A stretch of DNA of 37,271 nucleotides from a virus, in the IMG/VR virus record IMGVR_UViG_3300036870_000026, positions 1 to 37,271 of that record; one strand, written 5' to 3'. The notes beneath the pieces were generated by a model. The model was not told the origin of the DNA and did no database searches. It saw only the letters and a program-made list of their open reading frames with translations. The position numbers were made by a program, and so were the translations under genes. Shown here one piece after another: positions 3,813 through 37,271 of this stretch; the first letter of the stretch is position 1, and each line of letters starts with the position of its first letter.

Positions 3813-6800
3813 CTACACCTCGTTCCAGCGAAAACCGATCTTCGCCTCACCAACGAACTTGACCGGCAAGCCCCACGCGCGGCCGTCCATCGCCATCGCG
3901 AGTTCCATCATTCGAGCGACGTGGTTCGCGCGACACTTGCACTTCGGGGGGCAGTAGCCGAATTCGGCGTCCTTGCCGGTATACCGCGCGTGATCGACGG
4001 GAACCTCGACGACGAGCGAATCGTGCCCTTGCTGGACGAGTCGCGCGCCGTACTTCGGAAGCTCGCGCATGATGATCTCGGTTGCGAGGTGGACGAGCGC
4101 GGAGCCCCCGCTCTGCGCCTTCAAGTTCACTTCCGCGTTCGGATCCTCGCCGTCGAGGAAATCGCGGCGCATCCCGAAGATCGGCTCCGCGAGGAAGCCT
4201 TGACGACGGAACTCGGCTTGCTCCGTCTCCCACCACGTTGCGATCTCGGGGTTGCGGTTGAGCCACTTCGCGGAGAAGGCGACCACCTCACGAAGAGTAA
4301 GATCAGGATAGAGGATGCGGCGCTCGTGGATCGCGCTCGGGTGCTTCTCGCAACGCGCAACGTAGTTGTCGAGCGCAAGGCTGCACTGCCCGCAGACCCA
4401 ACCTTCCGACGAGGTGAGAACGCCGTGCTTCGTGTCGTCTTCCGCGAGGTAGAAAGACGCATAGGTGAACTCCTTCACGAAGCGGCGGAGCGCCTTCTTT
4501 TCGGCCTTGCCCGCCATTCGATAGATGTCACCGAAGAAGTCTTCGCAGAGTACGGCGTGCGGATCCTCGCCCGCGTTCAAGGCCGCGAGGTAGACCTCGG
4601 CCTTGGCGAGCGCGGCGACCATGCGGAGTTCGAGTTGCGCCTCGTCGCAGCCAACGAGCACGTAGCCCGCGGGCGCGGTCACCATGTCGCGGAGGTCGTC
4701 GGGGAAGTTCTGCGCGTTGACCCGCGAGGAAGAGAGCCGCCAGCCGACCGTGCCGTGGGCGCTGTAGTCAGGATGGATCCGGCCGTCGGGGAGCACGAGC
4801 CCGTGGGTGGACTCCAGCTTTTCGATCCGCTTCTTCCTCTCCTCGTCGCTCTCCTCCTCGTCGAAAGCGAGGTCGTCGTCGCTCATTCGCTCGCCGATCG
4901 GACGGAGCTTCAAGACGTAGGTGCCGCGCATCTTGGTGACCGCGCGGAAGCGGCGGACAGCCTTGATCACCGACTTCTTGTGCTCGTCGAGCCGGTAGGA
5001 CGGCCCGAGCATCGCGCGGAGCGTGTCGTCACCCGTGGACGGATCCCCGGCCTCGGTCGGCTTCCCGTGCGGCAGGAGCGCCCACTCGTCGAAGAGAAGG
5101 TCGCGGATCTGGGGCACCGAATTCGGGTTGAAGTGCGAGCGGGCGAGGAGTTCCTGTACCGTCTTCAAGTAGCGGCGCGCGTCCACGAGGAGCCGGCGAT
5201 CCCATTCCTTCCGGCGAGCCTGATCGACGTACATGCCATTTCGGTGAAGCTCGACGCAGAAGCCTTGCACGGTGGGCCAGAACTTCGCGGCGGCCTCCTG
5301 GCCGCGAGCGCGCACGGCGTCGGAGAGCGGCTTCAAGGTGAGTGCCGTGATCGCACAGTCGCGGGCGTTGTAAATCCGCATGTCGCCCTGAGTCTTGATC
5401 GCCTTCGCGTCAAACTCGTCTTTCCACGACGGCGCGTCGGTATGGATCGATCCGACGTACCCGAGCCGGTGAGGCAACTCGGGCTCGACCATCTTGTGCA
5501 GCCCGATTCCATCGACGCTCGGAGCGGGCGTCACGCCGAAGTGGTGCTCGATCACCATGCGATCGTAGTACCCGGAATTCCACCCCGCCTTCGTCCACCG
5601 CGAGTTCGTGAAGAAGTCTTGGATCACCTCGACGAGCGGGGGGCCGCCGCGGGTGTCGTAGGCATAGGCGTTGCTCCCCACGAGGAGGAAGGGGATGCCG
5701 ACCGCGCGCTTGCCGTCGAGCGTCGCGAGCCCAAGGTAGCGGAGCCGGTCGAAGAGCGGGTCGTAGTGATCCACGTCCGGGAAGCCGGGCAAGGTCTCGA
5801 CGTCGTAGATGACGACGCCGCCCGCAGTCTCCAGCCACGCGCGAAGTTGTGCGGCCGTCGGCTGGTAGAGGATCTCGGGATCCTGCCACGCGAGCCCGCT
5901 CGTGAACCACCGGAAGGCCCGCGAGAGGTCGGCGCGGAGAGCGCCTTGCCAACGCCGCGCGTGGAGCACGAAGGAAGGGTGGACGGTGGGTAGAACGTGG
6001 TAGCGCGCGAACGAGCCTTCGTTGCCGACGCCGCTAGGGACCGCGATCTCGCGGGGCCCGCCGCGGACGTCCATGACCGACGAGCGGTCGCCGAGGGCTT
6101 CGAGGGCCGTGCCCCCGAGTGTCACCACGTTCTTCGTGCCCGCGAGGCGGAGGTCGTCGAGGAGCCGTGGCCGGCAACAGTCGAGGGGGTGGAGAAGTGG
6201 GGCATCCCCGAGGGTCTGCCGACGCTTGTTCGCTTTGCGAAGATCAGCCGTCAAGCGAGCCATCTTGTAATCGGGGAGCGGGCAGGCGATCGCGTTCACG
6301 ATCGAGACCGCGTGCCGCCTGACGCCGACGGCGGCGAGGGCGCGAGTGAGTTCGATGCCCGAGGCGCCGCAATTGTGGACAACGAATCCATTCGCGATGA
6401 ACGTGCCAGCCGTCGTCGTGATGTCCACGACTTCCCGAGTTCCCGCAGGCTCGCGCGAAAGCACTCGGGCCGCCATCGGAAGCCGAAGCGACGGCGGATT
6501 TGAAGCGATTGCCATCGCGAAGTCGGTGATCAGCCGCTCCGAACGAACGACACCAAGAAAGTGCATCGACTCGATCAATCCACCCCGAATGTAGCACTTC
6601 GTATTCGTGGATCGCTTGTGGTAGGCGCGTTGATTCTGAGGCGCTCGAATATCGAAGCCGAGGGCGCGAACAGTAGCGATAGCACGATCCAGCGTGGGCC
6701 CAAGATTTTGAGCAAATCCTACGATCCCGCGTGCGTGTGCCCCCCCACCACGAGATCCCGCGACATGCCCCTCTCCGTCCAAGAATCCGGCGAGCCACCC

Positions 6801-7343
6801 GGCAAGGCGATCGTCGTTCATTCTCCACGGGGCCACGCCGATTCCCGCGATGTTAGAAGCGTGTGTCCCACGGCCAACCATCAATTCATCAATGCGACGC
6901 CATCGAGTAGTGCCGCAGGCAGTTCCACGTCCACGGCGACGAGTCAAAACGACATGATCTCCGGTTCCAATCAACTCACCGCCGTCAGTGACTACACGAT
7001 GCGTCGGCGCTGTTCGATGTGTTACGTTAACGACGGTTGCAGCCGTCCACTTCCGAGCCGCCATCTTACTAATTCCAGCGGCCGGTGATCCATTCTCGTC
7101 TACGGTTAGAATTCGATCGCCGACGCAAAGGTCTCCGAGCGAGCGCCAAGACAGATCGAGCATGAGCACGGGAGTCGCAGCGTCGAGGCAAAAGGGCTTG
7201 CCCTCGCGGACCTCGTTTTCGCCGGGGGCCTCACCGACGAGCACGGCGCGGGTGCCGGGCCGCAACTCAGGGGGCACGGGCGGCTGCCCGTTCAGCGCGC
7301 AGACGTCGCACCTAGCATTTTGCTTCCTTGGATCGTAAGTCAC
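3813..7343 (-). CDS. Uracil-DNA glycosylase (family 4-like)-family A DNA polymerase fusion, interrupted by an intein
   Basis: The precursor has 1176 residues, starting at a GTG that overlaps the HNH stop (GTGA). Residues 1-51 plus 325-480 form a UDG-like domain: CDVC near the start, VGEAPGENEVREGKPF, then CGASG, later Cys residues (ACPLPD, LDCCRP), and a VHPSFVL motif. A 3'-5' exonuclease domain follows, with DVE (514-516), WNSGYYD and YNARD. The polymerase part has motif A VGCDEAQLELR, motif B RRFVKEFTYASFY and motif C GHDSLVVEV. Motif C reads H-D-S where family A enzymes usually have H-D-E. Two Cys-rich stretches (WVCGQC...ARCEKH and CPPKCKC) look like small metal-binding insertions. Excision of the 273-residue intein would give about 903 residues. 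This is the likely replicative polymerase. Confidence 0.9.
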   Translation of the reverse strand: MTYDPRKQNARCDVCALNGQPPVPPELRPGTRAVLVGEAPGENEVREGKPFCLDAATPVLMLDLSWRSLGDLCVGDRILTVDENGSPAAGISKMAARKWTAATVVNVTHRTAPTHRVVTDGGELIGTGDHVVLTRRRGRGTACGTTRWRRIDELMVGRGTHASNIAGIGVAPWRMNDDRLAGWLAGFLDGEGHVAGSRGGGAHARGIVGFAQNLGPTLDRAIATVRALGFDIRAPQNQRAYHKRSTNTKCYIRGGLIESMHFLGVVRSERLITDFAMAIASNPPSLRLPMAARVLSREPAGTREVVDITTTAGTFIANGFVVHNCGASGIELTRALAAVGVRRHAVSIVNAIACPLPDYKMARLTADLRKANKRRQTLGDAPLLHPLDCCRPRLLDDLRLAGTKNVVTLGGTALEALGDRSSVMDVRGGPREIAVPSGVGNEGSFARYHVLPTVHPSFVLHARRWQGALRADLSRAFRWFTSGLAWQDPEILYQPTAAQLRAWLETAGGVVIYDVETLPGFPDVDHYDPLFDRLRYLGLATLDGKRAVGIPFLLVGSNAYAYDTRGGPPLVEVIQDFFTNSRWTKAGWNSGYYDRMVIEHHFGVTPAPSVDGIGLHKMVEPELPHRLGYVGSIHTDAPSWKDEFDAKAIKTQGDMRIYNARDCAITALTLKPLSDAVRARGQEAAAKFWPTVQGFCVELHRNGMYVDQARRKEWDRRLLVDARRYLKTVQELLARSHFNPNSVPQIRDLLFDEWALLPHGKPTEAGDPSTGDDTLRAMLGPSYRLDEHKKSVIKAVRRFRAVTKMRGTYVLKLRPIGERMSDDDLAFDEEESDEERKKRIEKLESTHGLVLPDGRIHPDYSAHGTVGWRLSSSRVNAQNFPDDLRDMVTAPAGYVLVGCDEAQLELRMVAALAKAEVYLAALNAGEDPHAVLCEDFFGDIYRMAGKAEKKALRRFVKEFTYASFYLAEDDTKHGVLTSSEGWVCGQCSLALDNYVARCEKHPSAIHERRILYPDLTLREVVAFSAKWLNRNPEIATWWETEQAEFRRQGFLAEPIFGMRRDFLDGEDPNAEVNLKAQSGGSALVHLATEIIMRELPKYGARLVQQGHDSLVVEVPVDHARYTGKDAEFGYCPPKCKCRANHVARMMELAMAMDGRAWGLPVKFVGEAKIGFRWNEV
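6372..7190 (-). mobile_element. LAGLIDADG intein in the UDG domain of the polymerase
   Basis: This covers residues 52-324 of the precursor. It begins with Cys in CLDAATPV (block A), has GTGDHVVLT (block B, TxxH), a homing endonuclease motif LAGWLAGFLDGEGHV (block C), and ends VVDITTTAGTF...GFVVHN (blocks F and G) with Cys as the first downstream extein residue. All residues needed for splicing are present (Cys1, TxxH, His-Asn, Cys+1). Removal restores the continuous UDG motif GKPF-CGASG. Only one clear LAGLIDADG motif is seen; a second could be degenerate. The region is visibly less GC-rich than its surroundings, as expected of a mobile insert. Confidence 0.92.
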
Positions 7344-17723: not shown

Positions 17724-18730
17724 GTCTTGTCTCCCTTCCCGGACTGCGGCGCGCGCCCGGGTTCATCGTCTGATCCGAAGTGTGGCCCGGCATGCCCTTC
17801 GGGAAGTGAGCATGGCTCCCCTTCAAACCCATCCGGGGGCTCCAGGCCGCAAAGCACCTGCTCACACTCCCAGTCGTCTCCATCTCCCTGCATGTCCGCG
17901 AGCATCTCATTGAGCGCGGCCTCGTCACCCTGCGCCGCCGTCCCCGTGGCCTCGGGAGAGCGCGGGGCGCACGCGCGGATGATGGCGCTTCGGTCGTGAC
18001 CTGGCTCCCCGGGCTTCGTGCTCACTCCTGGGCCACTCATGTAGAAGTCGCGCCTGGCGCTGGCTTCCTCGTAGGTGGCGAACCGCTGCTTGCCGTCCTC
18101 TCGGCCGCAGCAGATGAACGTGACCTCCCAGCGGTCCTGGCACTTCGGACAGGGCCACTCATGCGACCCGTCCGCAGGGTTCACGGCGAAGGCCCGGGTG
18201 ACGATGCCCTCTCCGTTGCACTCGTCGCAGTCCTCGGGCGCCGCCGTCTCCGTCGTGGAGGGGGCCGCGCACACCGAGCATCCAGGCATCGCGCAATCGC
18301 CAGCGGGGTGGGGCGGCGTCGTGGAGGGGGCGCGCGGCGCGGCATCTTCTTCGTGAGGGCCGTGGGGCACGTTCACGCCAGGGCAAAACTCGCAATGCGC
18401 GTCCACGCGCGGCGGCTCTGCGGGAGCGCGGGGCGCGGCGGGGATCTGGCGCAGCAACGTATTCAGCATCGCGGCGCATTCCTCCTCGTTGTCGAGGCGA
18501 GCGCCACCACCGACGATGGCTCGGCCGCTCTTGTTCTCGGGGTAGTCAACCACACAGAACTGCCAGCCCCGCGTCCCCTCCTCCACGGGCAGCGCCGCGT
18601 TGCACGGCGCATAGCCGATCGCGAACTGGCCTGCCGGGACGACGCCCGATCCTTGACATGCACAGGTAGCCGGGTGCCCAACTCGACGCGCTTCCTTCGA
18701 CGCTTGGAGTCTCTTCTCGATCTCGGTCAC
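17720..18730 (-). CDS. Hypothetical protein with several Cys clusters and low-complexity linkers
   Basis: The product has 336 residues. GTG 18730 is chosen because it overlaps the lipoprotein stop (GTGA) and has GAGGAAGCC in front; the longer open frame upstream has no support. Cys-rich segments (TCACQGSG; DCDECNGEGIV...PCPKC) resemble DnaJ-type zinc repeats, separated by Pro/Ala-rich linkers (APRAPAEPPRVD). A central region (WQFCVVDYPENKSGRAIVG) is more ordered. No family recognised. Its length and composition suggest a mosaic of short modules. Confidence 0.5.
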   Translation of the reverse strand: MTEIEKRLQASKEARRVGHPATCACQGSGVVPAGQFAIGYAPCNAALPVEEGTRGWQFCVVDYPENKSGRAIVGGGARLDNEEECAAMLNTLLRQIPAAPRAPAEPPRVDAHCEFCPGVNVPHGPHEEDAAPRAPSTTPPHPAGDCAMPGCSVCAAPSTTETAAPEDCDECNGEGIVTRAFAVNPADGSHEWPCPKCQDRWEVTFICCGREDGKQRFATYEEASARRDFYMSGPGVSTKPGEPGHDRSAIIRACAPRSPEATGTAAQGDEAALNEMLADMQGDGDDWECEQVLCGLEPPDGFEGEPCSLPEGHAGPHFGSDDEPGRAPQSGKGDKT

Positions 18731-18948
18731 GGCTTCCTCGATGGAGGGCACTCTTCCGTGCATACCTTGACGTCGCACTCGCAGGACGTGCCGATGATGC
18801 CCTCGCCTGGACGACACATAGAGACCGCGTAGGGCTTGCAGCGTGTGATGCAGACCTCGCACGTCTCCGCGCAGCCAGTGAGAAGTAAGACAGCGAGAAG
18901 GATGATCAAGACGATCGAAAGCAACAGACGAGCGTGGATCTCTCTCAT
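18727..18948 (-). CDS. Cys-rich exported lipoprotein
   Basis: The product has 73 residues from an ATG at 18948 (GGAGACC upstream). The N-terminal RLLLSIVLIILLAVLLLTGC is a lipoprotein signal with LLTGC lipobox, so the mature protein would start at Cys26. The short mature part holds many more Cys (CEVCITRC, CECDVKVCTEEC) and may be disulfide-bonded. It is the first gene of the leftward arm. Such small lipoproteins in phages can act as spanin or superinfection exclusion factors; no evidence decides between them. Confidence 0.6.
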   Translation of the reverse strand: MREIHARLLLSIVLIILLAVLLLTGCAETCEVCITRCKPYAVSMCRPGEGIIGTSCECDVKVCTEECPPSRKP

Positions 18949-18981: not shown

Positions 18982-19011
18982 ACGCTAGACGAAAGTGGCA
19001 CACCTCGTCAA
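18982..19011 (-). promoter_or_regulatory. Putative promoter of the leftward arm
   Basis: Leftward TTGACG (19011-19006), 18-base spacer, TAGCGT (18987-18982), about 34 bases before the lipoprotein start. It matches the window's shared TTGnCn / TAGnnT pattern. Confidence 0.45.
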
Positions 19012-19048
19012 GTTGCTGGCGCTTCGCTCGCGCGACGGCCACGAAATC

Positions 19049-19104
19049 TTGCCGGAAAACCGGCACGGGAGTAGTCTCCCGCACCTCGGGCGTTACGGGC
19101 GCCC
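19049..19104 (+). promoter_or_regulatory. Rightward promoter with three tandem hairpins before the rep gene
   Basis: TTGCCG (19049-19054), 17-base spacer and TAGTCT (19072-19077) form a promoter pointing to the rep gene. Three dyads overlap or follow it: TGCCGG/CCGGCA (19050-19065, loop AAAA), CGGGAG/CTCCCG (19066-19081, loop TAGT) and GGGCG/CGCCC (19088-19104). The -35 lies in the first arm and the -10 starts in the loop of the second, a layout that suggests operator sites or antisense/attenuation control of rep expression. The rest of the 18949-19120 gap holds only the leftward promoter and the rep ribosome site. Confidence 0.5.
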
Positions 19105-19120
19105 TTGTCGGGGAGAGCGC

Positions 19121-20674
19121 GTGGCCGATGAACTGCCGTGGGAGCCTGACCTCCTAAGCCGAATCCATCAACCAACGCCGCAACAGGTTACGGCCACCCG
19201 CGATCCCGTCCCCTTCATCTGGGAGAGCCGAATCCCAGCGGAAAAGGTGTCGATCTTCTCGGGGGCTGGCGGCTCGGGGAAGTCTAGCCTCCTCGTCGGG
19301 CTCGTGCTCGCGCGAGCCTGTGGCCGGCGCTTCCTGGGGAAGCTCACCCGACCGGGCGCGACGCTCGTCGTCTCCGCGGAAGACGCGGTCATCGACTACA
19401 TGCGGAAGGTGGACGCCTGGCGCGAGGTCTACCGCGACCTCGACCCCGTCGCCATCGCGCGGAACCTCCAGATCCTTCCGCTCGTCGGCGAAGACTTCCG
19501 GCTCGTGGGCGGCCGTTACGGCGGGTGTTACGTCGAGCGGGAACGGGTGGATCGGCTCTCCGTCGCGGCGCGGGCCATGAACCCGAGGCCCGACCTCATC
19601 ATCTTGGAGACGGCGAGCCGCTTCGGGGTGGGGGACGAGAATTCCAACGAGTCGGCGGCGGCCCTGATCGCCGCGTGCGAGAGGCTTTCCAGCAACGCGC
19701 AGGCCGCAGTGACGCTCGTCGCCCACGTCGGGAAGGCCGCCGCGAGAGAGCAAACCGTGGACGCCTACTCGGCCCGCGGCGCCTCTGCCTTCACCGACAA
19801 CGCGAGGTCCGCCCTCGTGCTCGGCACCATTTCACCCGACCGCGCGAAGCGGCTCGCGCTCACGGCCGACGAGGCGCGGGACCTCCTGATCGTGGCCTGC
19901 CCGAAGGCGAACCTCGCCGGCCGCTCCGCTGACATCGTGGTCGAGCGGGTCGAGACCGTCCACGGGCTCGTCCTGCGGCCCTTCGAGGGCGGCGGGATGA
20001 CCATGGAGGATCGGGTCACGGCCGGGCGCGTGGCGGCGATGGCGAAGCGGGAGGAGCGCGGCCGGCTCCTGCGAGCCCTTGTGCTCGACCTGACCCAAGC
20101 GGGGACAGTGGTGACCCCTCGGTTGCTCCGCGACGAGCAAAGGGTGGCGCTGCGGAATATTCCCGTCCGGGAAATTCCCGAGGTCGTCGAGCAAGCCGTA
20201 GCCGACGGATGGCTCGCCGTGGGGGACATCGCGAAGAAGGGCGGCGGCAAGATCCTCCTCCCGGGCTCGGGAAAGCGTGATCAAGTGGGATCAAGTGGGA
20301 TCGCGTTACCACTTGAGGTCGGATCCCACTATAAAAATGCGGAATCACAAGGGAATGGCGAAGTGGGATCAAGTGGTGTCAGACGACAGAGTGATCCCCA
20401 CTCTCAAGTGGGATCACAGTCTCTTTCTCTTAAGGAAACCACTTCCGATGTTACCACTTCGTTTCCCAGTGAGATCAACGCTTTAGGCCAGAATGGCGTC
20501 CGAAGTGGTAACACGGGCTCTGTTACCACTTCCACGGTTGCCTCGAACGGATTATTTCCGAATATTCCGCCGGGCGGGAACGGCGTCCCGAAAATTCCCC
20601 CGAATAATTCCCCGGCGGAGCCCGAAAATAAATCCCCGAATATTCCGGCGGCGAACGTCCCGCCGTGGGCCTAA
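19121..20674 (+). CDS. RepA/DnaB-type replicative ATPase with iteron-bearing C-terminal region
   Basis: The product has 517 residues. GTG 19121 is preferred because GGGGAGAG lies directly upstream; a longer frame from 18995 would cross the promoter region. Walker A is GAGGSGKSS (48-56), Walker B RPDLIILETAS (about 156-166), with AAA_25/RepA-type features (VVSAEDAVIDYMRKVDAW, VTLVAHVGKAA). This fits hexameric RepA-like helicases or helicase-loading ATPases. Residues 388-471 are a low-complexity linker encoded by the iteron array, and the tail is Asn/Pro-rich (NIPPGGNGVPKIPPNNSP). As in lambda O, the origin may lie within the gene of its own initiator. Confidence 0.8.
   Translation: MADELPWEPDLLSRIHQPTPQQVTATRDPVPFIWESRIPAEKVSIFSGAGGSGKSSLLVGLVLARACGRRFLGKLTRPGATLVVSAEDAVIDYMRKVDAWREVYRDLDPVAIARNLQILPLVGEDFRLVGGRYGGCYVERERVDRLSVAARAMNPRPDLIILETASRFGVGDENSNESAAALIAACERLSSNAQAAVTLVAHVGKAAAREQTVDAYSARGASAFTDNARSALVLGTISPDRAKRLALTADEARDLLIVACPKANLAGRSADIVVERVETVHGLVLRPFEGGGMTMEDRVTAGRVAAMAKREERGRLLRALVLDLTQAGTVVTPRLLRDEQRVALRNIPVREIPEVVEQAVADGWLAVGDIAKKGGGKILLPGSGKRDQVGSSGIALPLEVGSHYKNAESQGNGEVGSSGVRRQSDPHSQVGSQSLSLKETTSDVTTSFPSEINALGQNGVRSGNTGSVTTSTVASNGLFPNIPPGGNGVPKIPPNNSPAEPENKSPNIPAANVPPWA
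20283..20531 (+). repeat. Iteron array: ten AAGTGG cores in both orientations, inside the rep gene
   Basis: Forward cores begin at 20283, 20293, 20361, 20371, 20406 and 20503; reverse cores (CCACTT) at 20309, 20439, 20454 and 20526. Two longer forms recur: AAGTGGGATC (20283, 20293, 20361, 20406) and AAGTGGTAAC (20503 and, reversed, 20309, 20454, 20526). Ten hits to one hexamer in 249 bases is far above chance. This is probably a replication initiator-binding region. Confidence 0.8.
20551..20656 (+). repeat. AT-rich palindromic repeats next to the iterons
   Basis: CCGAATATTCCG(C)CGG-type units recur near 20558 and 20636, with a related CCCGAATAATTCCCCGGCGG between them; the palindrome GGAATATTCC also occurs earlier at 20154-20163. 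The block is clearly more AT-rich than its surroundings and could be an unwinding element of an origin. Confidence 0.5.
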
Positions 20675-23398: not shown

Positions 23399-24874
23399 AT
23401 GGCATTCGATACCGCTGGAGAGATGGAGAGGTTGAAGGCAGTCGCGGACGAGAAGGGCGACGACTTCATCATCCAAGTGTTCCGGCAGGACACGATGACG
23501 TCGGCGCAGCAAGATCGCGCCGCGACCTTCGGCAGCGCGACCGTCGCCCACTTCGCGACCCCCGAGACGTGGATCCCGGAGATCCTCGGCGGTGGCTACT
23601 ACCGACTCGCCGCGCTCCACGCGACCGACACCTCGAAGGTGATCGCGATGATCTCGGGGATCTCGATCCAGGCCCCGCGGAAGAACCCCCCGAACTTCGC
23701 CGCGGTCGATCGCGACGACTGGCAGGGGCCGAAGGTGCTCAAGTACCCCAAGCGCGAATCCCAGCAGGCCGCAGCGGCGATCGGGCCGTTCGTCGGCTCC
23801 CCTGGCGCTGGGACTGCCCCTCAGGTTGGCTCCGGTGCGCGAGACCAGAGCCCCGGGGGCGGTTCCGGCGCCTCTTCCATCGAGGCGCAACTCGCGTTGA
23901 TCAACTTCCAGCGACAGCATGACGCGGAGGCCTTGCGGCTGACCTTGGAAGCACAAGCGAAGGCGCAGGAGCGGCAGTTCTCGGCGTTCATGGAGATGGT
24001 GAAGGCGATCTCCTCCAAGCCGGCGGCCCCGCCGCCTCCCCCGGACAAGCCGCTGATCGATCAGATCGTGCCCCTCGTGGCCGCCTTCACTCCGCTCGTC
24101 ACCGTCATCATGGGCCAGCGGAAGGATGACGCGAAGGCCGCGCTCGAACGCGAGGCGAAGCGCGAGGAGCGCGCCGCGCTCGACCGCGCCGAGTCGATGA
24201 AGATGCTCCTCTCGATGAACGAGAAGGCGTCCGCGGCCTCGGGCGACTTGCTCAAGGTCGTCTCGCCGATGGTGGACGCGGTCGCGCAGATGGGCCGCAC
24301 CGTGCTCCAGAACGTGACCATGCTCCGCGAGATCCAGGGCGAGCCCCCCGAGGAGGAGGGCTTGACCGGCGTGCTCAAGGAAGGCATCCGAGCCCTCGGG
24401 CCCGCCCTCGGCGATTGGCTCGCCGCGAAGGAGGCTGCTAAGGCCGGCGCCACGCCCGCGCCACAGCCGCCTCGCCAGCTTCCCCCCGGCCAGCCCCCGC
24501 AGAACGGTGCCACGGCTCCGCAGGCGCCGGCCCCCGAGGCCGGCGACCCCGACGATCCCACCGACGAGGCTGCCCCACCCGACTTCGCCACGGTCCCCGC
24601 CGCGGATCTCCTGAACGGGATCGAGACCGCGGTGCGCGAGCACATCGGCACCGACGAGCTTGCCGGCGCCTACCTCGACTCGCTCACCAAGAACGCGGGC
24701 GTCCGCGACGCGGTGAACGCGGCCGGCGGCACCCTCCCGTTCTTCCAGAAGCGCCTCGGGCCCTGGATCATGGACCCGAAGCCGGGCAAGGATGGAGTCC
24801 TGAACTCGACGTACCTGCGGTCGCTCGTGGGGGCGTTGAAGACCGCCGCGCAGCAACGCGGGATTCAGGTGTAG
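23399..24874 (+). CDS. Large coiled-coil/linker protein, possible internal virion protein
   Basis: The product has 491 residues; ATG 23399 has the site AGTAGGAGATCC. An ordered N-terminal domain (about 1-130; DDFIIQVFRQDTM, PEILGGGYYRLAALHA) is followed by a low-complexity linker, a long charged helix (QRKDDAKAALEREAKREER), a second Pro/Gln-rich linker and a C-terminal helical domain (about 400-491). No family recognised. It precedes the structural block and could be an assembly or DNA-associated virion protein. Confidence 0.6.
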   Translation: MAFDTAGEMERLKAVADEKGDDFIIQVFRQDTMTSAQQDRAATFGSATVAHFATPETWIPEILGGGYYRLAALHATDTSKVIAMISGISIQAPRKNPPNFAAVDRDDWQGPKVLKYPKRESQQAAAAIGPFVGSPGAGTAPQVGSGARDQSPGGGSGASSIEAQLALINFQRQHDAEALRLTLEAQAKAQERQFSAFMEMVKAISSKPAAPPPPPDKPLIDQIVPLVAAFTPLVTVIMGQRKDDAKAALEREAKREERAALDRAESMKMLLSMNEKASAASGDLLKVVSPMVDAVAQMGRTVLQNVTMLREIQGEPPEEEGLTGVLKEGIRALGPALGDWLAAKEAAKAGATPAPQPPRQLPPGQPPQNGATAPQAPAPEAGDPDDPTDEAAPPDFATVPAADLLNGIETAVREHIGTDELAGAYLDSLTKNAGVRDAVNAAGGTLPFFQKRLGPWIMDPKPGKDGVLNSTYLRSLVGALKTAAQQRGIQV

Positions 24875-25981: not shown

Positions 25982-25985
25982 GATG

Positions 25986-26624
25986 CTACTCCTTCCCCCA
26001 CTTTTTCAAGTAGGCGAGCAACGCGCGCAGCCGCTTGGGATCCTCTCGAAGTTGACCGAGCGTAACGTTGCACTCGTGGCAGAGCAAGTCTCGGCGTTGA
26101 CCCGTCGCGTGATCATGATCGGCGTGCAAGGCACGATCCGACGCCTGCTTGCACGCGGCGCACTTGTTACCTTGGGCGGCGCGCTTCGCTCGGTACTCTT
26201 CAAGCGTGAATCCGGTGCTGCGTCGCCGCCCGCGCCCAGAATTCACTTCGTAGCACTCTTCGCAACGCTTGCCGTGCTTGGGATGGGGAACAGTTTCGCC
26301 GCAGTCGATGCACAACCCGGCGGCTACACGCGCGTCTCTGGGACGTTGGGCAGCGTCAAGGCATCTTTGGCAGCACCGATGGTTGGGCGCCCGGATGCCG
26401 CCGCACTTGCATCTCCCGGCTTCTACGTTCCGCATGCACTTAGTGTTGATCAAGTCGCGGCATCGCGCGCAAAGCTTGAAGCCTTCGATGCGTTCGGATC
26501 CGCATCGACAGCGACCGGCCGCCGCGTTCTTCTCACGGAACGCCCGACTTCGACAGGCGGCGCAAAGGGTCCTCTTCTTCGGAGCTACGCGGACGCGGCA
26601 TTCGGTGCAAAGCGGTCGATCCAT
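25986..26624 (-). CDS. Endonuclease VII-like homing endonuclease, inserted opposite to its neighbours
   Basis: The product has 212 residues, on the strand opposite all flanking genes. The C-terminal core is KCAACKQASDRALHADHDH followed by LLCHECNVTLGQLREDP, the CxxC...DHDH...CxxCN pattern of endonuclease VII. The N-terminal part has five or more CxxC-type pairs (CTECRV, CAACRS, CARCRD, CQRCLD, CIDCGE), a repeated zinc-knuckle array that could provide sequence-specific DNA binding. The insertion is flanked by two copies of the transglutaminase-like 3' end, the typical mark of a free-standing homing endonuclease that replaced the end of its target gene. Confidence 0.85.
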   Translation of the reverse strand: MDRPLCTECRVRVAPKKRTLCAACRSRAFREKNAAAGRCRCGSERIEGFKLCARCRDLINTKCMRNVEAGRCKCGGIRAPNHRCCQRCLDAAQRPRDARVAAGLCIDCGETVPHPKHGKRCEECYEVNSGRGRRRSTGFTLEEYRAKRAAQGNKCAACKQASDRALHADHDHATGQRRDLLCHECNVTLGQLREDPKRLRALLAYLKKWGKE

Positions 26625-26648
26625 GGCTGCGACTCTACCACAAACCTT

Positions 26649-26699
26649 GGGTGGCAGCCGCCGCGCGGCGAAGTGCTCACCGATTGGGGAAAGGACTAG
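26649..26699 (+). pseudogene. Displaced 3' end of the transglutaminase-like gene
   Basis: The 51 bases encode GWQPPRGEVLTDWGKD plus a stop. The genuine gene ends 25931-25981 with GWQPPVGEVLTDWGRD. Fourteen of 16 residues agree while many DNA differences are at third codon positions. It is not attached to a start codon and is most simply the original end of the gene before the endonuclease insertion. Confidence 0.8.
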
Positions 26700-27883: not shown

Positions 27884-28087
27884 ATGCCGATGTCGATCGC
27901 GGTTCTCGAAGGATACCGCGCGCCGTCGTCTCGGAGGTCCACCATGGCCCGTCGTCGCCGTCGTCGCGTCGTCCACCGGAAGGGCGGGAAGCGCGCCCTG
28001 CGGAAGAAGATGAAGTCCTGCGCCAAGCGGCACAAGGTCACGTCCCGGTCGTTCTGGGCGTGCGTCCGCCGGGGCCGCCGGAAGTAG
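27884..28087 (+). CDS. Very basic small protein, possible DNA-condensing virion protein
   Basis: From ATG 27884 (AAGGAGGT upstream) the product has 67 residues; a second ATG at 27944, with GGAGGT 5 bases before it, would give 47 residues of extreme basicity. The body is RRRRRRVVHRKGGKRALRKK. Two Cys are present. The composition resembles protamine-like or core virion proteins. Confidence 0.55.
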   Translation: MPMSIAVLEGYRAPSSRRSTMARRRRRRVVHRKGGKRALRKKMKSCAKRHKVTSRSFWACVRRGRRK

Positions 28088-28769: not shown

Positions 28770-29462
28770 ATGTCCGTTCCCGGCTTCCTCCTCCCCGCTC
28801 CCAACCGGCCGTCCACCGCCCTCGCGGGCGTCGGCGACCTCCACGACGACAACATCTACTCGGCGCTCGTCGCCGCCCACGGCGGCGTCGGCACCATCAA
28901 GACGTTCGTCTCGGGTCAGGGCTCTCCCATCCCGGCCCTGACCGGCACCGCGATCCTCGCGGCCTCGGTCCCCACCACGTACGTCACCTACTCGCCGCTG
29001 ACCACGGTGATCGAGCAGTCGGGGCAACTCGGCAACTCGATCGGTGACGCGACCGTCCGCGCCATCGGCGTGACGATCGACCAGGCCGCGGTCACGACCG
29101 GCACCCCGCGGTCCTGGGGCGCGACCTCCTTCGAGGTGAAGGATCTTCTCTCGAAGACCCGCGTCGAGGTCAAGGTCTCGAACAAGCGGCGCATCCTCGG
29201 CCCGACGTGGAGCTACCCGCAGACGGGCGGCGCCATCGGCTTCACCACCGCGACCGGCGAGTCGTTCGCCCAGAACGGGTTCCCGACCGGCCGGAAGCTC
29301 CGGAGCCCGATCGAGATCGCCCGCACCGACGTCATCGTGTGCGAGTTCACCGCGGACGCCGCCCTGGCGTTCTCGGACACCTCGTTCGCGGCGTCGCACG
29401 ACGGCCAGGCGTCCCTCGTCTGGATCAACATGATCGGCACGCTGCGGAGCGACGTGCGGTAG
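28770..29462 (+). CDS. Candidate major structural (capsid) protein
   Basis: The product has 230 residues, with GAAAGAGG before the ATG. It is neither basic nor hydrophobic and is rich in short strands (TYVTYSPLTTVIEQSGQLGN, RVEVKVSNKRRILGPTWSY, ASLVWINMIGTLRSDVR). It starts with Pro/Gly-rich coil. It is followed by two strong tandem hairpins, as expected for a highly expressed gene. No capsid family is recognised by eye (no HK97-type features). Assignment is by position, composition and expression signals. Confidence 0.45.
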   Translation: MSVPGFLLPAPNRPSTALAGVGDLHDDNIYSALVAAHGGVGTIKTFVSGQGSPIPALTGTAILAASVPTTYVTYSPLTTVIEQSGQLGNSIGDATVRAIGVTIDQAAVTTGTPRSWGATSFEVKDLLSKTRVEVKVSNKRRILGPTWSYPQTGGAIGFTTATGESFAQNGFPTGRKLRSPIEIARTDVIVCEFTADAALAFSDTSFAASHDGQASLVWINMIGTLRSDVR

Positions 29463-29590: not shown

Positions 29591-30592
29591 ATGCCGATCT
29601 TCTCGTACCTGTCGCCGAAGACGACTCCGAAGCCCGTCATCGTTGAGTCGCGAGAGGCGAAGACGCCCGGCGTTGCCCAAGGGGCTCCGATCCTTCTCTA
29701 CGATCGCGTGACCGTTCTGCCGAACGGCGAGCAACCTCTCAAGTCGAAGTCGTTCACGAACAACCGGAGCCGGCGCATCCAGCTTCACGAGATGCGGATC
29801 GCCGGCACGATCACCGCCACGACCGGGCACGTCGTCCCCCCGATGTTGCTGGCGTTGCAACTCGTGCTCCGAAAGAAGAGCGGGAAGTCGATTCCGATCA
29901 CGCGCGGCTACGTCCCCGTGCCGATGATCTGCAAGTCCACGAACCGCGACGCCGAACTCTTCGGGTTCATCATCACTCTCGCCCCGGCCGACGTGACGGT
30001 CGGCGCGATGGCATGGAAGTTCTCTTACCCCGTCGATCTCGCGCCTGGAGACTTCATCGAGGCACAAGTCAAGAACGTCGGCCTTTACAACGCTTCCGTC
30101 GTGGTCGATCTCTCCTTCGCGGGCGCCGACGCCGCGGATCTTCCGTCGTATCGCGTGCCCTACGTCATGCACTGGCAATCGCGCGACTTCGCCTACGCGG
30201 AAACCGCGGTGGATTCGTCCCCGCCGGATCAACTTGCCAACGGGCTCGGGACCGATCTCCACGTCGATCGAATCATCGGCCGCTTCCTCTCCCGGAATCC
30301 GAAGGGGACCGGGGACGAGGTCGCCGACTTCGCGGACCTGTCCGACCAATCTGTCTTCAACGCCAACCTGAGGATCGGCACTGCCCAGAAGTTCCCGATC
30401 CTTCGTTCCTACGCTCCGTTCCGCGGCGTCTTCGGGCAGGACGCGGCGATCGAGACCGACTTCCTCCTCGCTTCGGGTGACTACCTCACGGTGGATGTCC
30501 AGCACACCGCGGGGCCGACTCTCACGACGCCGTTCACCTACTTCTTCGGCCGCGGACTCATCTCGCTCGTCGGCTGGCGGGAGGTCGCATGA
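29591..30592 (+). CDS. Beta-rich two-module structural protein 1 (candidate double-barrel capsid-type)
   Basis: The product has 333 residues; ATG 29591 has TTGGAGGAAGTCAAA upstream. Two halves of similar plan can be seen: an entry strand (RIQLHEMRIAGTI; DLHVDRIIGRFLSRN), a long beta-rich middle, and a closing strand region with L-x-PGD or L-x-SGD plus V-x-V (LAPGDFIEAQVKNVG; LASGDYLTVDVQHTAG). It ends GRGLISLVGWREVA. This is inferred to be a double beta-barrel type virion protein. Start and stop overlap the next gene by ATGA. Confidence 0.5.
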   Translation: MPIFSYLSPKTTPKPVIVESREAKTPGVAQGAPILLYDRVTVLPNGEQPLKSKSFTNNRSRRIQLHEMRIAGTITATTGHVVPPMLLALQLVLRKKSGKSIPITRGYVPVPMICKSTNRDAELFGFIITLAPADVTVGAMAWKFSYPVDLAPGDFIEAQVKNVGLYNASVVVDLSFAGADAADLPSYRVPYVMHWQSRDFAYAETAVDSSPPDQLANGLGTDLHVDRIIGRFLSRNPKGTGDEVADFADLSDQSVFNANLRIGTAQKFPILRSYAPFRGVFGQDAAIETDFLLASGDYLTVDVQHTAGPTLTTPFTYFFGRGLISLVGWREVA

Positions 30593-31491
30593 CCGCGACT
30601 CGCGATACGGCGCCGTTCATCCTCTTCGGGACGACCCCGAACCTCACCGTGAACGCCTCAGGGGCTTCGGTTCTCCTTCCCGCGGAAGGATTGACGAACC
30701 CGTTCAACGAGCCCATCGAGGTCACCGAGATCGAATTTCTCGTCCAGGCGCAGAGTAGCGCGGTCTGGATTTACGATGTCATGCTGCGCGCGGGCCGGCA
30801 TGATCTCACGAATGGATTCTGTCCAATCCCCGCGGTCGCTCCGAGGTACGACGCGGAGGAAGAGGTAGGCGTGCTCGCCGCGGGTGTCGTGACTGGCATC
30901 GGCTCTTCGACCGTTCGGTGGATCCTGCCCCGGCCGATGATCTTGCCGGCCGGCTCTGCAATCACGGGGGCGTTCCGCGTGAACCCGGCGGCTCCAGGGA
31001 ACACGGGCCCCGGAGTGAATAACACGACCTCGACCCTCACGGTGGTCGCGATTGCTCGTCGGATCGCGCCTGGCACTCCCAAGGCACGGACGACATGCAT
31101 TCCCTTCGTGTCCGGGGCGCTCTACACGGCCGCGCAAGCCTCCGCTGCGGGCGGCTCCATCGGACCCGCTCCGAATGATCTCCAACTGATGAATACCTTC
31201 GCGGCCCCTCTGTACGTCAACCAGATCGTTGGCGCTCCGATCGGCAGCGGCGCGGGATTTGGGGTGCTCGCCCTGACTTCCGTGGTCATCACGGGTCCTG
31301 GCGGCATTCTCGGAACGCCGAGGCGTACCGTGGCGGACGGCATCCCGCAAGGCTTCCTCGGAGCCCGTTCCGCGATCGAGGTTGGGCACGTCTTGAATCC
31401 TGGGGAGAGCTACAGGGCCGTGCTCTCTGGATTCCTCAACGCAACCGGGATGGCGGTCGCGATCGCTGGATATCGTGAGGAGGCACTGTGA
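30589..31491 (+). CDS. Beta-rich two-module structural protein 2
   Basis: The product has 300 residues, start overlapping the previous stop (ATGA). The plan repeats that of its neighbours: LTNPFNEPIEVTEIEFLVQAQ as entry strand, LPAGSAITGAFRV as closing part of module 1, APLYVNQIVGAPIGSG as entry of module 2 and LNPGESYRAVLSGFLN plus AIAGYREEAL at the end. Gly- and Ala-rich, no Cys pattern and no membrane span. No catalytic motif. Confidence 0.5.
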   Translation: MTATRDTAPFILFGTTPNLTVNASGASVLLPAEGLTNPFNEPIEVTEIEFLVQAQSSAVWIYDVMLRAGRHDLTNGFCPIPAVAPRYDAEEEVGVLAAGVVTGIGSSTVRWILPRPMILPAGSAITGAFRVNPAAPGNTGPGVNNTTSTLTVVAIARRIAPGTPKARTTCIPFVSGALYTAAQASAAGGSIGPAPNDLQLMNTFAAPLYVNQIVGAPIGSGAGFGVLALTSVVITGPGGILGTPRRTVADGIPQGFLGARSAIEVGHVLNPGESYRAVLSGFLNATGMAVAIAGYREEAL

Positions 31492-32363
31492 TCCCCCGCA
31501 CCGCTCCAGTAGTTCTCACGGCTGATACGATGTCGATCACGAACGCCGCTGCAAGCGGTGTCACGGTCGCGGCGCCGAATGGGCTTCGTAACAACGATGC
31601 CGTCGGCGTGATCATCGATCGGTTGACGTTCACGTCCCCGGTTAACAACTCGCAAGTTACCGGACGCAACTGCCTCCACGTTTCGCTTCGATACAAGGGG
31701 CTGCCCCTCACGAACGGGTGGGTTCCAGTCGGCGCCTTCTGTCCGGTCGTCAACGAACGGCTCGATACGAAGGTGAACGCGGTCACCCTCTCGAAGCCGC
31801 TATACCTCGGGCCGAATGAGTGGATCGACGTCTCGGTCACTAATCCGCTTGGCGTCGGCATCGCGGCCACGACCGGCTTCGTCGTCAACGCGCAAGGGCA
31901 CTTCGCTGACCCGCCAAGGGAGAAGTGGCTTCCGTATTTCAGTCACTTCATGGGGGCTGCGCGAGACGGCAGTTCCAATGCCGTCTTCGCCGAGGCGTCC
32001 ACGCCTCAAGACCTCGGCAACCCCTTCCCCGATCGGCCGCTCATCATCGAGCGACTCATCGGGCGCGTGGCGCTGGCGACGGCTGCCGCTGGCCCCTACA
32101 CCCTGTTCTCGCCGAACGCCGGGTGGCTGCCGTTCAACCTGCGGATCTCCGATGACCAGTCGAGGTGGTGGATCCAGACGCCCGCGCCGATTCACATCGC
32201 GATGAACTCCCTCACGCGGGCGTGGCGGCTCAACTACGCTCTCCCGCCGTCGAGCTTCCTCCGTGTCGAGGTGGAGGGCACCGCGACGTGGACGAGCAAC
32301 GCGAACGTGCCTCAATTCGGGATCCCGATCGTGGGCATGGTCGGCTATCGCAGGATCGGGTGA
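31488..32363 (+). CDS. Beta-rich two-module structural protein 3
   Basis: The product has 291 residues from a GTG overlapping the previous stop (GTGA). It repeats the plan: GVIIDRLTFTSPVNNSQVTG, LGPNEWIDVSVTNPLG closing module 1, then LGNPFPDRPLIIERLIGRVAL, LPPSSFLRVEVEG and PIVGMVGYRRIG at the end. The shared NPFxxxPxxIxxI and closing VGxRR or GYREE elements link it to its two neighbours. The ATG of the next gene follows by a few bases. Confidence 0.5.
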   Translation: MIPRTAPVVLTADTMSITNAAASGVTVAAPNGLRNNDAVGVIIDRLTFTSPVNNSQVTGRNCLHVSLRYKGLPLTNGWVPVGAFCPVVNERLDTKVNAVTLSKPLYLGPNEWIDVSVTNPLGVGIAATTGFVVNAQGHFADPPREKWLPYFSHFMGAARDGSSNAVFAEASTPQDLGNPFPDRPLIIERLIGRVALATAAAGPYTLFSPNAGWLPFNLRISDDQSRWWIQTPAPIHIAMNSLTRAWRLNYALPPSSFLRVEVEGTATWTSNANVPQFGIPIVGMVGYRRIG

Positions 32364-32367
32364 GACC

Positions 32368-33207
32368 ATGACCTACGACAAGGCAATCACCCAAGTCAGC
32401 ACGAGCTACCAGTTTCAAAGCTACTTCGACTCGGCGTTGCTTCACACCGCGATCCAGTTGCAGTCGCCGGGTGACGCGATCGTCGCCTCGACGAAGCAAT
32501 TCTCGCAGTCGAAGGGCTACGGCATCGCGGTTCATCCGCAAGCGGACTGCCCCATGGCGTTCCGCTTCCGCGGCGGGTCCGCCGATGGCGCCACGCTGAT
32601 CGTGTGCCCGGGGCAAGTCTTCTACCCGGGCTCCTTCGACACCTTCGAGTACGGGCTCCCCTTCGGGTGGCTCGGCGGTGGCTCGGCGCTCTTCTACATC
32701 CTCCATCACCCCGAGGCTCGGGTGGACTTCTCGGGTGCCGGGCGCGCGCCGATCGTTTGCCACCGCGCCCGCTTCATCATCGAGGGCGCCTTTCCTGGCA
32801 CCGTCTCTCGGAACTGGCCCCGGACGTTCCCGTGGCCGGCTGCGGCCATGGGCGCGGGGCCGGCGCCGCAGGATGGCGCTCCGCTCATCGACTTCGAGCC
32901 CGAGATCGCGATCATGCGGCTTCGGTCGTCGATCGCGAACCCGGCCACCCTCACTTTCCAGTGGCATGGCGTGGACGATCTCGACCTCACGGGCGCGAAC
33001 CCGCCCGTGCTCACCCTCACCGACTACACCGACACCGACATCTCGTTCCCGGCGGTCCCGGCAGGCTCGGGCGGCTTCCCCTTCGTGACCATGCCGCCTG
33101 AGATCCATCGGCTCGGGTGCTCGACGGGCGGGCTCAACATCATCGATCCGACGACCGCGCTCAATGGGGTTTACATCGACATCGTGCGGTACTGCCGTCT
33201 GGGCTAG
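32368..33207 (+). CDS. Beta-rich structural protein, less similar
   Basis: The product has 279 residues. Aromatic- and Gly-rich (VCPGQVFYPGSFDTFEYGLPFGWLGGG), with a PGS-type turn and several Cys (ADCPMAF, IVCPGQ, VCHRARF, LGCSTGG, RYCRLG). The two-module plan is not clear here; it could be a vertex or minor shell protein. No family recognised. Confidence 0.5.
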   Translation: MTYDKAITQVSTSYQFQSYFDSALLHTAIQLQSPGDAIVASTKQFSQSKGYGIAVHPQADCPMAFRFRGGSADGATLIVCPGQVFYPGSFDTFEYGLPFGWLGGGSALFYILHHPEARVDFSGAGRAPIVCHRARFIIEGAFPGTVSRNWPRTFPWPAAAMGAGPAPQDGAPLIDFEPEIAIMRLRSSIANPATLTFQWHGVDDLDLTGANPPVLTLTDYTDTDISFPAVPAGSGGFPFVTMPPEIHRLGCSTGGLNIIDPTTALNGVYIDIVRYCRLG

Positions 33208-33675: not shown

Positions 33676-34011
33676 ATGGCACGTCGCAAGAAGAGGTCGC
33701 GGAGCTTCGGGGAGCGCGCTCACAAGGGCCGCAACGTGCTCAAGGCGATCAGGCGCGCAGTGGGCGCCCGTGGTGAGACGCACCACCGGAGGGCCACCAT
33801 CGGGATCAAGGTTCACGTCGGTCGCTTCACCGATGCTGGCACCGGCCGGGGGCGCTTCTACGCGACGGCGTGTGTCATGGGCAGCGACGCCCGCGGGGTC
33901 CGCGCCAGCCAAGGCCGGCGGTGTGGACCTGACGGCTACGGGAACACGCCCACCCGCGCGGTCGAGTCGGCGCTCGTCGCGCTCGCCAAGTCCCACAACC
34001 TTCGGAAGTAG
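33676..34011 (+). CDS. Basic MARR-type protein 1
   Basis: The product has 111 residues. N-terminus MARRKKRSRSFGERAHKGRN, then a compact domain with FYATACVMGSDARGVRASQG, CGPDGYGNTPTRAVESALVALAKS. The second half is similar to the next protein (ACVxG, RCG, TPTxA motifs). This is probably a nucleic-acid-associated virion protein family present in several copies. Confidence 0.55.
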   Translation: MARRKKRSRSFGERAHKGRNVLKAIRRAVGARGETHHRRATIGIKVHVGRFTDAGTGRGRFYATACVMGSDARGVRASQGRRCGPDGYGNTPTRAVESALVALAKSHNLRK

Positions 34012-34021
34012 GAGATCGGCC

Positions 34022-34321
34022 ATGGCTCGACGCTCGAAGCGGTTCGGCGACATGAAGCACCGGAAGTGGTTCAAGGGGAAGTCGGGCGGCGCGGCCGGCT
34101 GGAAGTCCATCGCCGCCAAGATCCAAGTGGCCCGCGTCGGCGACACAGGAGAGGGCGGACGGCCGAAGCCCTACCGCGCCATCGCATGCGTGGGCGGGGG
34201 TCCGAAGCGCGGCGGATTCTACCCACGGCACGCTGGGACGAGGTGTGGCAACGGCCGCGGGAGAACGCCGACGCTCGCGATCCGCAACGCCTTCAAGGAT
34301 CTCGGGAAGAACTTCAAGTAG
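34022..34321 (+). CDS. Basic MARR-type protein 2
   Basis: The product has 99 residues. MARRSKRFGDMKHRKWFKGK, then YRAIACVGGGPKRGGFYPRH, RCGNGRGRTPTLAIRNAFKDLGKNF. Paralogous in its second half to the protein before it. The ATG follows GGAGATCGGCC. Confidence 0.55.
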   Translation: MARRSKRFGDMKHRKWFKGKSGGAAGWKSIAAKIQVARVGDTGEGGRPKPYRAIACVGGGPKRGGFYPRHAGTRCGNGRGRTPTLAIRNAFKDLGKNFK

Positions 34322-34669: not shown

Positions 34670-34993
34670 ATGGCGAGACGCAAGCGCAAGCGGTTCGGCG
34701 ACCCGACCGAGGTCCACTCGGAGCGGGCGAAGAGCACCCTCCGGGAGATCCGTCGGCTCATGGGCGCCGTGAAGCGGCACCTGCGGGCGCCGGCTGACTG
34801 CGCGACCGCATCGAGGCTCGCGATCTCGCTCGCGCAACAGCAAGGCGCCTACCTCATCGACCGCGCCTCGGGGCGGGGCCGCGCCCGCTTCGTGAAGGGC
34901 GCGAGTGCCGTGATCGACAAGGTGCTCCGCGAGTGCGTGCTCAAGCCGCGCTCCGAGGCCCACAAGCGGAAGATCCACGCGGTCTGGAGGTAA
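34670..34993 (+). CDS. Basic MARR-type protein 3
   Basis: The product has 107 residues. MARRKRKRFGDPTEVHSERA start, then helices (STLREIRRLMGAVKRHLRA, SRLAISLAQQQGAYLI). N-terminus resembles the other MARR-type proteins while the rest differs. Probably a nucleic-acid-binding virion or assembly protein. Confidence 0.5.
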   Translation: MARRKRKRFGDPTEVHSERAKSTLREIRRLMGAVKRHLRAPADCATASRLAISLAQQQGAYLIDRASGRGRARFVKGASAVIDKVLRECVLKPRSEAHKRKIHAVWR

Positions 34994-35608: not shown

Positions 35609-37271
35609 ATGCGCCGGATTTCTCTCGTCGTCGCCCTCGTCATCATCGGACTCTCCTGCGACGCTGACGCCGCACCGATCATCCGATCTCTCGGTCCTGG
35701 GACCGGCGCTTCTGGTGGTGCGGTGACTCCACCGAATCAGAATGCGGTGCTCTTCGCGCCGTTCAACGTTCCCGGATGCTATGCCAACGGTTCCACGGCA
35801 CTGGCAACGAACGGCGCCGCGGTAGTCTTCACGCGGGGATCTACCGCGAACTATCAAGACAACCCCGGGGCCGGCTGGTCGTCCTGCGCGTCGGGGCAAG
35901 CCCGCGTCTCGGGGTGGACAGGCTATATCTCGGAGCGCGCTGCCTCGCAGCAACTCACGGCGAGCACCGATTCACCAGCGAACGGCGGTGGGTGGGCACT
36001 CATCGCCGCCGGGCCTACTGTCACGCCGAACAACGGCACGATCCCTTGGATCGATGGCACGAGCACGGCAACTCAGATCGTGACGTCGGCCGCGACGTTG
36101 AGTGGCCTCAAGCAAGCGATCACGGAGGGCGCTGTCACCTACGGGTTCGGCGGCTTCTTCCAAGGCAACATGGGGAATGGCAATCAGTATTGCATCGGGC
36201 TGAGCACGGACGGCACGAACGTGGATTGCAAGTTCACGATCTACCCTCCAGCCCTCACCTACCAGACATTGTCTGGTACCACTTCGCGTTGCGGCGTTGA
36301 ACTCGCTGGCGCCGATTGGGTTCGTGCGTGGACCGAATCGACGGTAGCCGGCGGGGCGAGCACGCCGCGCTTCTTCCTCGATGAGAATTGCACCAACGGC
36401 ACGATGACGGGGACCACAAACAACGCGCTGATCTACTATGTCGCGCGCATGTTTATGTACCATCCAAACAACTCGCCGGTATCGACCTACATCTCGGCTG
36501 CCACCTCGCGGGCCGCCGACCGCATGAGTTTCCCGATCTCGGTGACTGGCGGGAACGTCTGCCTTTCCGTGAAGGCGAATCCGATGGGCCTGCCGTGGTC
36601 GGTGCGGCACAACGTGGCTGCTAACATCAACACGCCGCTGGCCGGCGCTTACTCTTCTGGTACGACGGCCGGATCCGCGAACTCGATGTATATGTACCAA
36701 GGCGGCGGCGGAATGGTGTGCAACGTCTATGACAACGCTGTTGGAGTCAAGACGATCACGATCCCCACCGCCATCGATGACAACCTTTCGCACGTCTTCA
36801 AGTGCTGCGCGTCGTCGGCCGGCGTCGTGAGCGCCGGAATGGACGGAGGCATTACCACGAAGACGACTGGCGCTGGTACGGGAATCATCGGTGCGACGCT
36901 CACGTCCGTTTACGTGGGTGAAATCGACTCCGCCGAGACTGCGTGGACCGGCCCGATTGGCGTGAGCGACTTCGCCGTGTGCAACCTTTCCGATCCCACA
37001 CAGTGTGGCGATTGGAGCATCCCAGCTTCCACTTGGGATATGGCTTTGGGCGACTCGATCACTCAGAGCAACTTGTCTTATGTCCTTCCATCAAATACTT
37101 GGACCGTGACTGCCGCCAGCTTGAGCGGCCACCGCGTGATCAACTACGCTTGGGATGGAGCCAAGGCCGCCGATCTCCTCGCAGCGTGGCCGAACATGGG
37201 CGCGATGCAGCGGGCCGGGAAGGTGGCCGTGCTCGTCGGGATCAACGACCTCGAAGCTCCGCTGACCGCCG
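35609..37271 (+). CDS. Exported protein with lectin-like domain and SGNH/GDSL esterase domain (cut by window edge)
   Basis: At least 554 codons stay open from ATG 35609 to the window edge, in one frame throughout. The start is a signal peptide (RRISLVVALVIIGLSC, cleavage near ADA). A beta-rich Cys-containing region of about 430 residues, with GWSSCASGQARVSGW and sandwich-like repeats of strands, resembles a LamG/concanavalin fold. Then ALGDSITQSN (Asp482-Ser483) and VLVGINDL (Asn546) give blocks I and III of an SGNH hydrolase; the catalytic His lies off the window. Such enzymes deacylate surface polysaccharides. It is probably a receptor-binding depolymerase-like protein. Confidence 0.75.
   Translation, partial: MRRISLVVALVIIGLSCDADAAPIIRSLGPGTGASGGAVTPPNQNAVLFAPFNVPGCYANGSTALATNGAAVVFTRGSTANYQDNPGAGWSSCASGQARVSGWTGYISERAASQQLTASTDSPANGGGWALIAAGPTVTPNNGTIPWIDGTSTATQIVTSAATLSGLKQAITEGAVTYGFGGFFQGNMGNGNQYCIGLSTDGTNVDCKFTIYPPALTYQTLSGTTSRCGVELAGADWVRAWTESTVAGGASTPRFFLDENCTNGTMTGTTNNALIYYVARMFMYHPNNSPVSTYISAATSRAADRMSFPISVTGGNVCLSVKANPMGLPWSVRHNVAANINTPLAGAYSSGTTAGSANSMYMYQGGGGMVCNVYDNAVGVKTITIPTAIDDNLSHVFKCCASSAGVVSAGMDGGITTKTTGAGTGIIGATLTSVYVGEIDSAETAWTGPIGVSDFAVCNLSDPTQCGDWSIPASTWDMALGDSITQSNLSYVLPSNTWTVTAASLSGHRVINYAWDGAKAADLLAAWPNMGAMQRAGKVAVLVGINDLEAPLTA

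Follow-up and report, generated by a model that had tools for sequence, protein, structure and literature searches.

Three consecutive genes of a virus with tailed-phage-like replication genes probably encode double jelly-roll capsid proteins

Gene content of the record

The window that we analyzed is the whole IMG/VR record IMGVR_UViG_3300036870_000026, which is 37,271 bases long and has a GC content of 66%. Because genes run off both ends, the first and the last being cut, the record is incomplete, and the absence of a gene from these 37 kb is therefore little proof on its own. The left half of the record, on the minus strand, is devoted to replication and repair; in addition to the DNA polymerase in Table 1, it encodes HNH and endonuclease VII proteins, a DNA methylase, a Sak4-like AAA protein, a Cas4-like nuclease, an SNF2-type helicase, and an SbcC-like protein. 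In the right half, on the plus strand, the AAA_25 protein comes first, followed by a structural-looking module in which almost no protein matched Pfam or PHROGs. An assembly chimera was rejected, as an independent contig is 100% identical to the record over 16.4 kb of its left half and the gene order across both halves is the same in an independent genome, here called G002.

Table 1. Selected features of the window. Percentages are identities to the orthologue in G002; DJR, double jelly-roll; TM, transmembrane.
Feature	Coordinates	Strand	Remarks
UDG-PolA DNA polymerase, intein at about residues 51-324	3813..7343	-	Marker leading to relatives
AAA_25 primase/helicase-like protein, P-loop, replication not packaging type	18995..20674	+	
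Low-complexity protein, ~490 aa, opens structural module	23399..24874	+	Start codon inferred
Transglutaminase-like protein, 184 aa	25427..25981	+	Pfam 3.9e-4, just under cut-off; 62%
Extremely basic protein, 48 aa, net +23	27941..28087	+	Homologous frame in G002
Protein with arginine-rich N terminus and hydrophobic center, 175 aa	28159..28686	+	58%
Protein M, 230 aa, candidate vertex or further shell protein	28770..29462	+	73%
Protein A, 333 aa, putative DJR capsid paralogue 1	29591..30592	+	hhalign homology to C
Protein B, 300 aa, putative DJR capsid paralogue 2	30589..31491	+	Start overlaps stop of A (ATGA)
Protein C, 291 aa, putative DJR capsid paralogue 3	31488..32363	+	Start overlaps stop of B (GTGA); AlphaFold model
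Protein D, 279 aa, conserved structural-module protein	32368..33207	+	About 44-45%
Basic protein, 111 aa, net +21	33676..34011	+	Paralogue of 34019..34321 protein
Basic protein, 100 aa, net +21	34019..34321	+	63%
Basic protein, 107 aa, net +19	34670..34993	+	
Single-TM protein, 57 aa	34998..35171	+	
Secreted spike- or fiber-like protein	35609..37271	+	Cut by contig end

A preliminary description of this DNA had remarked on many small membrane proteins around genes A to C, and small TM proteins do lie there, together with strongly basic ones. Among the neighbors, the 175-aa protein is probably a membrane-associated virion protein, the low-complexity protein may be a scaffold, and M (whose AlphaFold model had a pLDDT of 26) and D are candidates for a single jelly-roll vertex protein. 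D has no detectable similarity to A, B, or C, and neither profile comparison nor shuffling supported M or D as additional paralogues of them. Two of the basic proteins (33676-34011 and 34019-34321) form with one from G002 (18623-18943) a small family that has a conserved GRTPTxAI motif and several copies per genome. The C-terminal segment of the transglutaminase-like protein, VGWQPPVGEVLTDWGRD, reappears as LGWQPPRGEVLTDWGKD where the next ORF (25983-26699) ends, possibly a partial duplication.

A, B, and C are paralogues

The preliminary description gave A, B, and C as adjacent ORFs of 333, 300, and 291 residues, and its coordinates and lengths are right; all three are on the plus strand, and their GC content by codon position resembles that of coding sequence. 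The stop/start overlaps ATGA (A/B) and GTGA (B/C) suggest coupled translation, and in G002 such overlaps are found between B and C and between C and D. BLASTP aligned A with C at E=1e-9, and hhalign profile comparison gave 1.6e-12 for A and C, 8.8e-5 for B and C, and 2.6e-4 for A and B, the alignments being collinear over most of the length. Shuffling yielded Z scores of 15.9 (A and C), 6.2 (A and B), and 5.8 (B and C) for the proteins of the record; in G002 the pairs with B were weak (2.2-3.4). By these sequence comparisons, A, B, and C are full-length paralogues of one family.

Common motifs and a plan of two similar modules per protein had also been proposed. The closing motifs are present (VGWREV, GYREEAL, and VGYRRIG) and NPF occurs in B and C, but the L-x-PGx strand is only partly conserved, as LAPGDF in A and LNPGES in B, with LGPNEW and LPPSSF instead in C. 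Comparison of half with half within the proteins revealed no detectable sequence similarity (p of 0.07 to 0.6; best hhalign value, 0.028), so the two-module claim needed structure, and its support comes from the structure predicted for C.

The predicted fold of C

We modeled C with AlphaFold from an alignment of six sequences, namely A, B, and C from the record and from G002. The resulting model is all-beta and of middling confidence (pTM of 0.74; mean pLDDT of 68). A Foldseek search of the PDB with this model retrieved GH172/DUF2961 enzymes, PM2 P2, iridovirus and PBCV-1 capsid proteins, PRD1 P3, and the STIV major capsid protein (MCP). VIA-align, with which models lacking a clear match usually peak at a best Z of 7-8, gave Z scores of 12.7 for the STIV MCP (236 residues aligned), 10.9 for the FLiP MCP, 10.7 for PRD1 P3, 10.0 for PM2 P2, and 9.7 for phiCjT23, and these DJR matches span about residues 10-291. 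Among all PDB chains, the best matches to the model were thus DJR capsid proteins and cellular DJR homologues, so that the structure comparison proposed in the preliminary description did find barrels. Foldseek against BFVD returned giant-virus MCPs and CRESS capsids and no closer named virus, and sequence profiles found no match in the PDB.

The DJR fold predicted for C is well supported because of these Foldseek and VIA-align matches, including those to DUF2961 proteins, which in cells are the known homologues of DJR capsid proteins and whose trimers are of the same type (PMC8812541). The model of C has the capsid fold that defines the DJR viruses (Varidnaviria, Bamfordvirae), and A and B would inherit it through their homology to C. 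A pair of one-barrel capsid proteins, as in Helvetiavirae, does not fit, since C aligns over its full length to two-barrel proteins.

Enzymes with the same fold count against a capsid assignment, as GH172/DUF2961 reached a Z of 12.3 with the C model, PHM 9.2, and PNGase F 8.3, the last two in the range of Z 8-9. A to C could on this basis be GH172/DUF2961, PNGase F, or PHM-type enzymes carried by a phage or plasmid. Despite the similar fold, none of the three proteins had a Pfam match at E up to 1, which speaks against membership in the GH172/DUF2961 sequence family. Bacterial DUF2961 genes, moreover, sit in carbohydrate loci without viral genes (PMC8812541), whereas the three paralogues here lie within a conserved viral structural operon. 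We therefore regard an enzymatic role as extremely improbable.

A probably complete relative

Since searching directly with the capsid candidates gave no match, we sought relatives with an alignment of PolA from the record and three phages. This search recovered three close records: a 20-kb contig of the same virus, which is the contig with 100% identity over 16.4 kb; a 15.6-kb fragment (78% identity in PolA); and G002 (L006; 56,226 bases; 58%). The two ends of G002 have 198 bases in common at 98.5% identity, which indicates that this genome is probably complete, circular or terminally redundant, and about 56 kb in size. G002 carries A, B, C, and D in the order of the record, and the homologous genes are collinear throughout. 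Its orthologues of A and B are 40% and 39% identical to those of the record, and the identities for A to C lie at about 33-40%.

Beyond G002, no sequence relatives of the capsid genes were found. IMG/VR searches with C, A, D, M, and the transglutaminase-like and basic proteins returned only G002 or nothing; M and the transglutaminase-like protein had no match in GTDB genomes; tblastn yielded nothing convincing in phages and plasmids; and profile A3 matched none of 47 other PolA-bearing records. The scans for relatives rely on a few short peptide patterns and therefore reach close relatives only.

Head, tail, and packaging genes

The preliminary description saw no portal, terminase, or HK97-type protein in the 37 kb. 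This is correct, though the record is incomplete, and the near-complete G002 offers a stronger test. None of its 73 proteins had a Pfam match to terminase, portal, HK97 capsid, or FtsK, and targeted searches of G002 gave no TerL, portal, or FtsK match over the cut-off. Hence no portal/terminase set adjoins A to C or lies anywhere in this probably complete genome, and the Caudoviricetes hallmarks are missing from it.

An A32/FtsK-type packaging ATPase, which the preliminary description proposed to look for, was likewise searched for and not found. A P-loop motif scan of G002 yielded four convincing proteins, of the SbcC-like, Sak4-like, SNF2, and AAA_25 families, which judging from their sequences look like replication and repair enzymes. 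A FtsK/HerA-type (A32-like) ATPase is a usual, though not strictly defining, feature of DJR viruses; that none was found is unusual at this genome size and counts against the capsid reading. G002 may possess a strongly diverged packaging ATPase.

PHROG comparison of G002 (best 25 of 93 families plus selected proteins) identified replication enzymes, an integrase, and endolysin-like domains. One fiber-like protein matched the 'tail protein' family phrog_5939 at 1.5e-17, and a 409-aa protein (L094, 19435-20664) matched the 'virion structural protein' family phrog_1645 at 3e-29. Both matches probably represent fibers or spikes, and L094 may be a spike that tailed phages have as well. G002 also encodes a lytic transglycosylase, along with a peptidoglycan-binding protein that has a TM segment at one end; both would fit a membrane-containing phage.

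These two PHROG matches, the tailed-phage-like replication genes, and the incompleteness of the record would suit a tailed phage with its head and packaging genes beyond the contig and with A to C as tail, fiber, or decoration proteins. But the syntenic G002, closed by its terminal overlap, lacks a terminase, a portal, and an HK97 protein, which makes such a phage very unlikely.

Interpretation and proposed assembly

Taken together, the predicted fold of C, the homology among A, B, and C, and the lack of a portal or terminase in G002 support the tandem double-barrel capsid paralogues proposed in the preliminary description. We consider it highly likely that A, B, and C are three paralogous DJR capsid proteins of a large, tailless, probably membrane-containing bacterial virus. 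Their virion role, trimerization, and the internal membrane are inferred, as is the bacterial host, which is an assumption of ours. The arrangement may also amount to a new capsid geometry.

M might instead be the true major capsid protein because its conservation far exceeds that of the other structural proteins, at 73% identity against about 33-40% for A to C. In that case the same tailless virus would have A to C as minor, vertex, or spike proteins with a DJR fold, and vertex or spike proteins may be beta-barrels too. Yet A to C are three tandem full-length proteins with a predicted fold typical of major capsid proteins, and surface-exposed capsid proteins may diverge fast. On balance, we find this arrangement unlikely.

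If A to C are the capsid proteins, they would be produced together from one translationally coupled operon and, like other DJR proteins, would assemble as pseudo-hexagonal trimers, the tiles of an icosahedral shell. This shell would overlie a membrane bearing many small TM proteins. The capsomers could be homotrimers at different lattice positions or mixed trimers of A, B, and C, and the very basic small proteins (48-111 residues, net +19 to +23) may condense the genome in place of a motor. A more specific version, which we put forward tentatively and hold to be rather doubtful, combines an obligate mixed A/B/C capsomer of six barrels, a ~56-kb genome that is condensed and enclosed without a motor of its own, and a tailed-phage replication module joined to a DJR shell.

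Relation to known DJR viruses

The capsid proteins of STIV, FLiP, PRD1, PM2, and phiCjT23 have the same double-barrel fold as C over the whole chain (Z of 9.7-12.7) and are of similar length, with small membrane proteins alongside, and A to C have no detectable sequence similarity to them. Unlike these viruses, the present one has three tandem paralogues and a 56-kb PolA-replicating genome. Several DJR paralogues in one virus are also found in the chlorovirus PBCV-1, whose MCP and five variants are 26-43% identical and build homotrimeric capsomers as well as, for some of them, heterotrimers (PMC9617893), but PBCV-1 is a 331-kb eukaryotic giant virus with another gene repertoire. The FLiP and Odin groups resemble the present virus in having a DJR capsid and no packaging ATPase, and assembly around the genome has been proposed for them; their genomes are small compared with about 56 kb, and the paper speaks of no capsid paralogues in these groups, against three here (PMC5894146). 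The tailless viruses of ANME-1 (Coyopavirales: Chaacviridae, Ixchelviridae) likewise have DJR proteins recognizable only by predicted structure; chaacviruses are archaeal, with genomes of 10-11 kb, a protein-primed PolB, and two capsid variants across the family (PMC9894754).

The DJR fold, multiple DJR paralogues (in giant viruses), and DJR viruses without an ATPase are thus already known. What looks new is that a ~56-kb, presumably bacterial virus genome combines three DJR genes in tandem with a tailed-phage-like PolA module, which turned up neither in the papers nor in the sequence collections that we searched. We assign the virus to none of the DJR virus families. The open-licence literature that we searched describes no phage with three tandem DJR genes, and to our knowledge no prokaryotic DJR virus has three DJR capsid genes in a row. 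If confirmed, this would be a lineage with three consecutive DJR capsid genes that sequence-based surveys have overlooked. It would also offer a small genetic system for studying how several subunits are used in a DJR shell, as in giant viruses, and for asking how a ~56-kb genome is enclosed without the usual ATPase.

The replication genes

The genome appears to pair a tailed-phage style replication kit with no recognizable DNA-packaging motor, and its capsid and replication genes seem to derive from different virus realms. Microcystis phage Mel-JY34 and vir526 (Caudoviricetes) likewise have UDG-PolA modules, with PolA (phrog_17), and one or both encode Sak4, a Cas4-like exonuclease, and a DNA methylase. 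They differ in being tailed phages with annotated capsid genes, and tblastn detected no structural genes common to them and the record.

Two peculiarities of these genes were seen in passing. A complete tRNA-Gln (TTG) is predicted at 16032-16103, on the minus strand, in-frame inside the ORF of the SNF2-type helicase (14990-16984); it is missing from the G002 helicase, and the other contig of this virus has it in identical form. An intein seems to be present both in the PolA of the record and in that of G002 (36540-40097), with insertion sites that differ (the UDG domain versus a polymerase motif), and the intein of the record resembles one in Mycobacterium phage LinStu.
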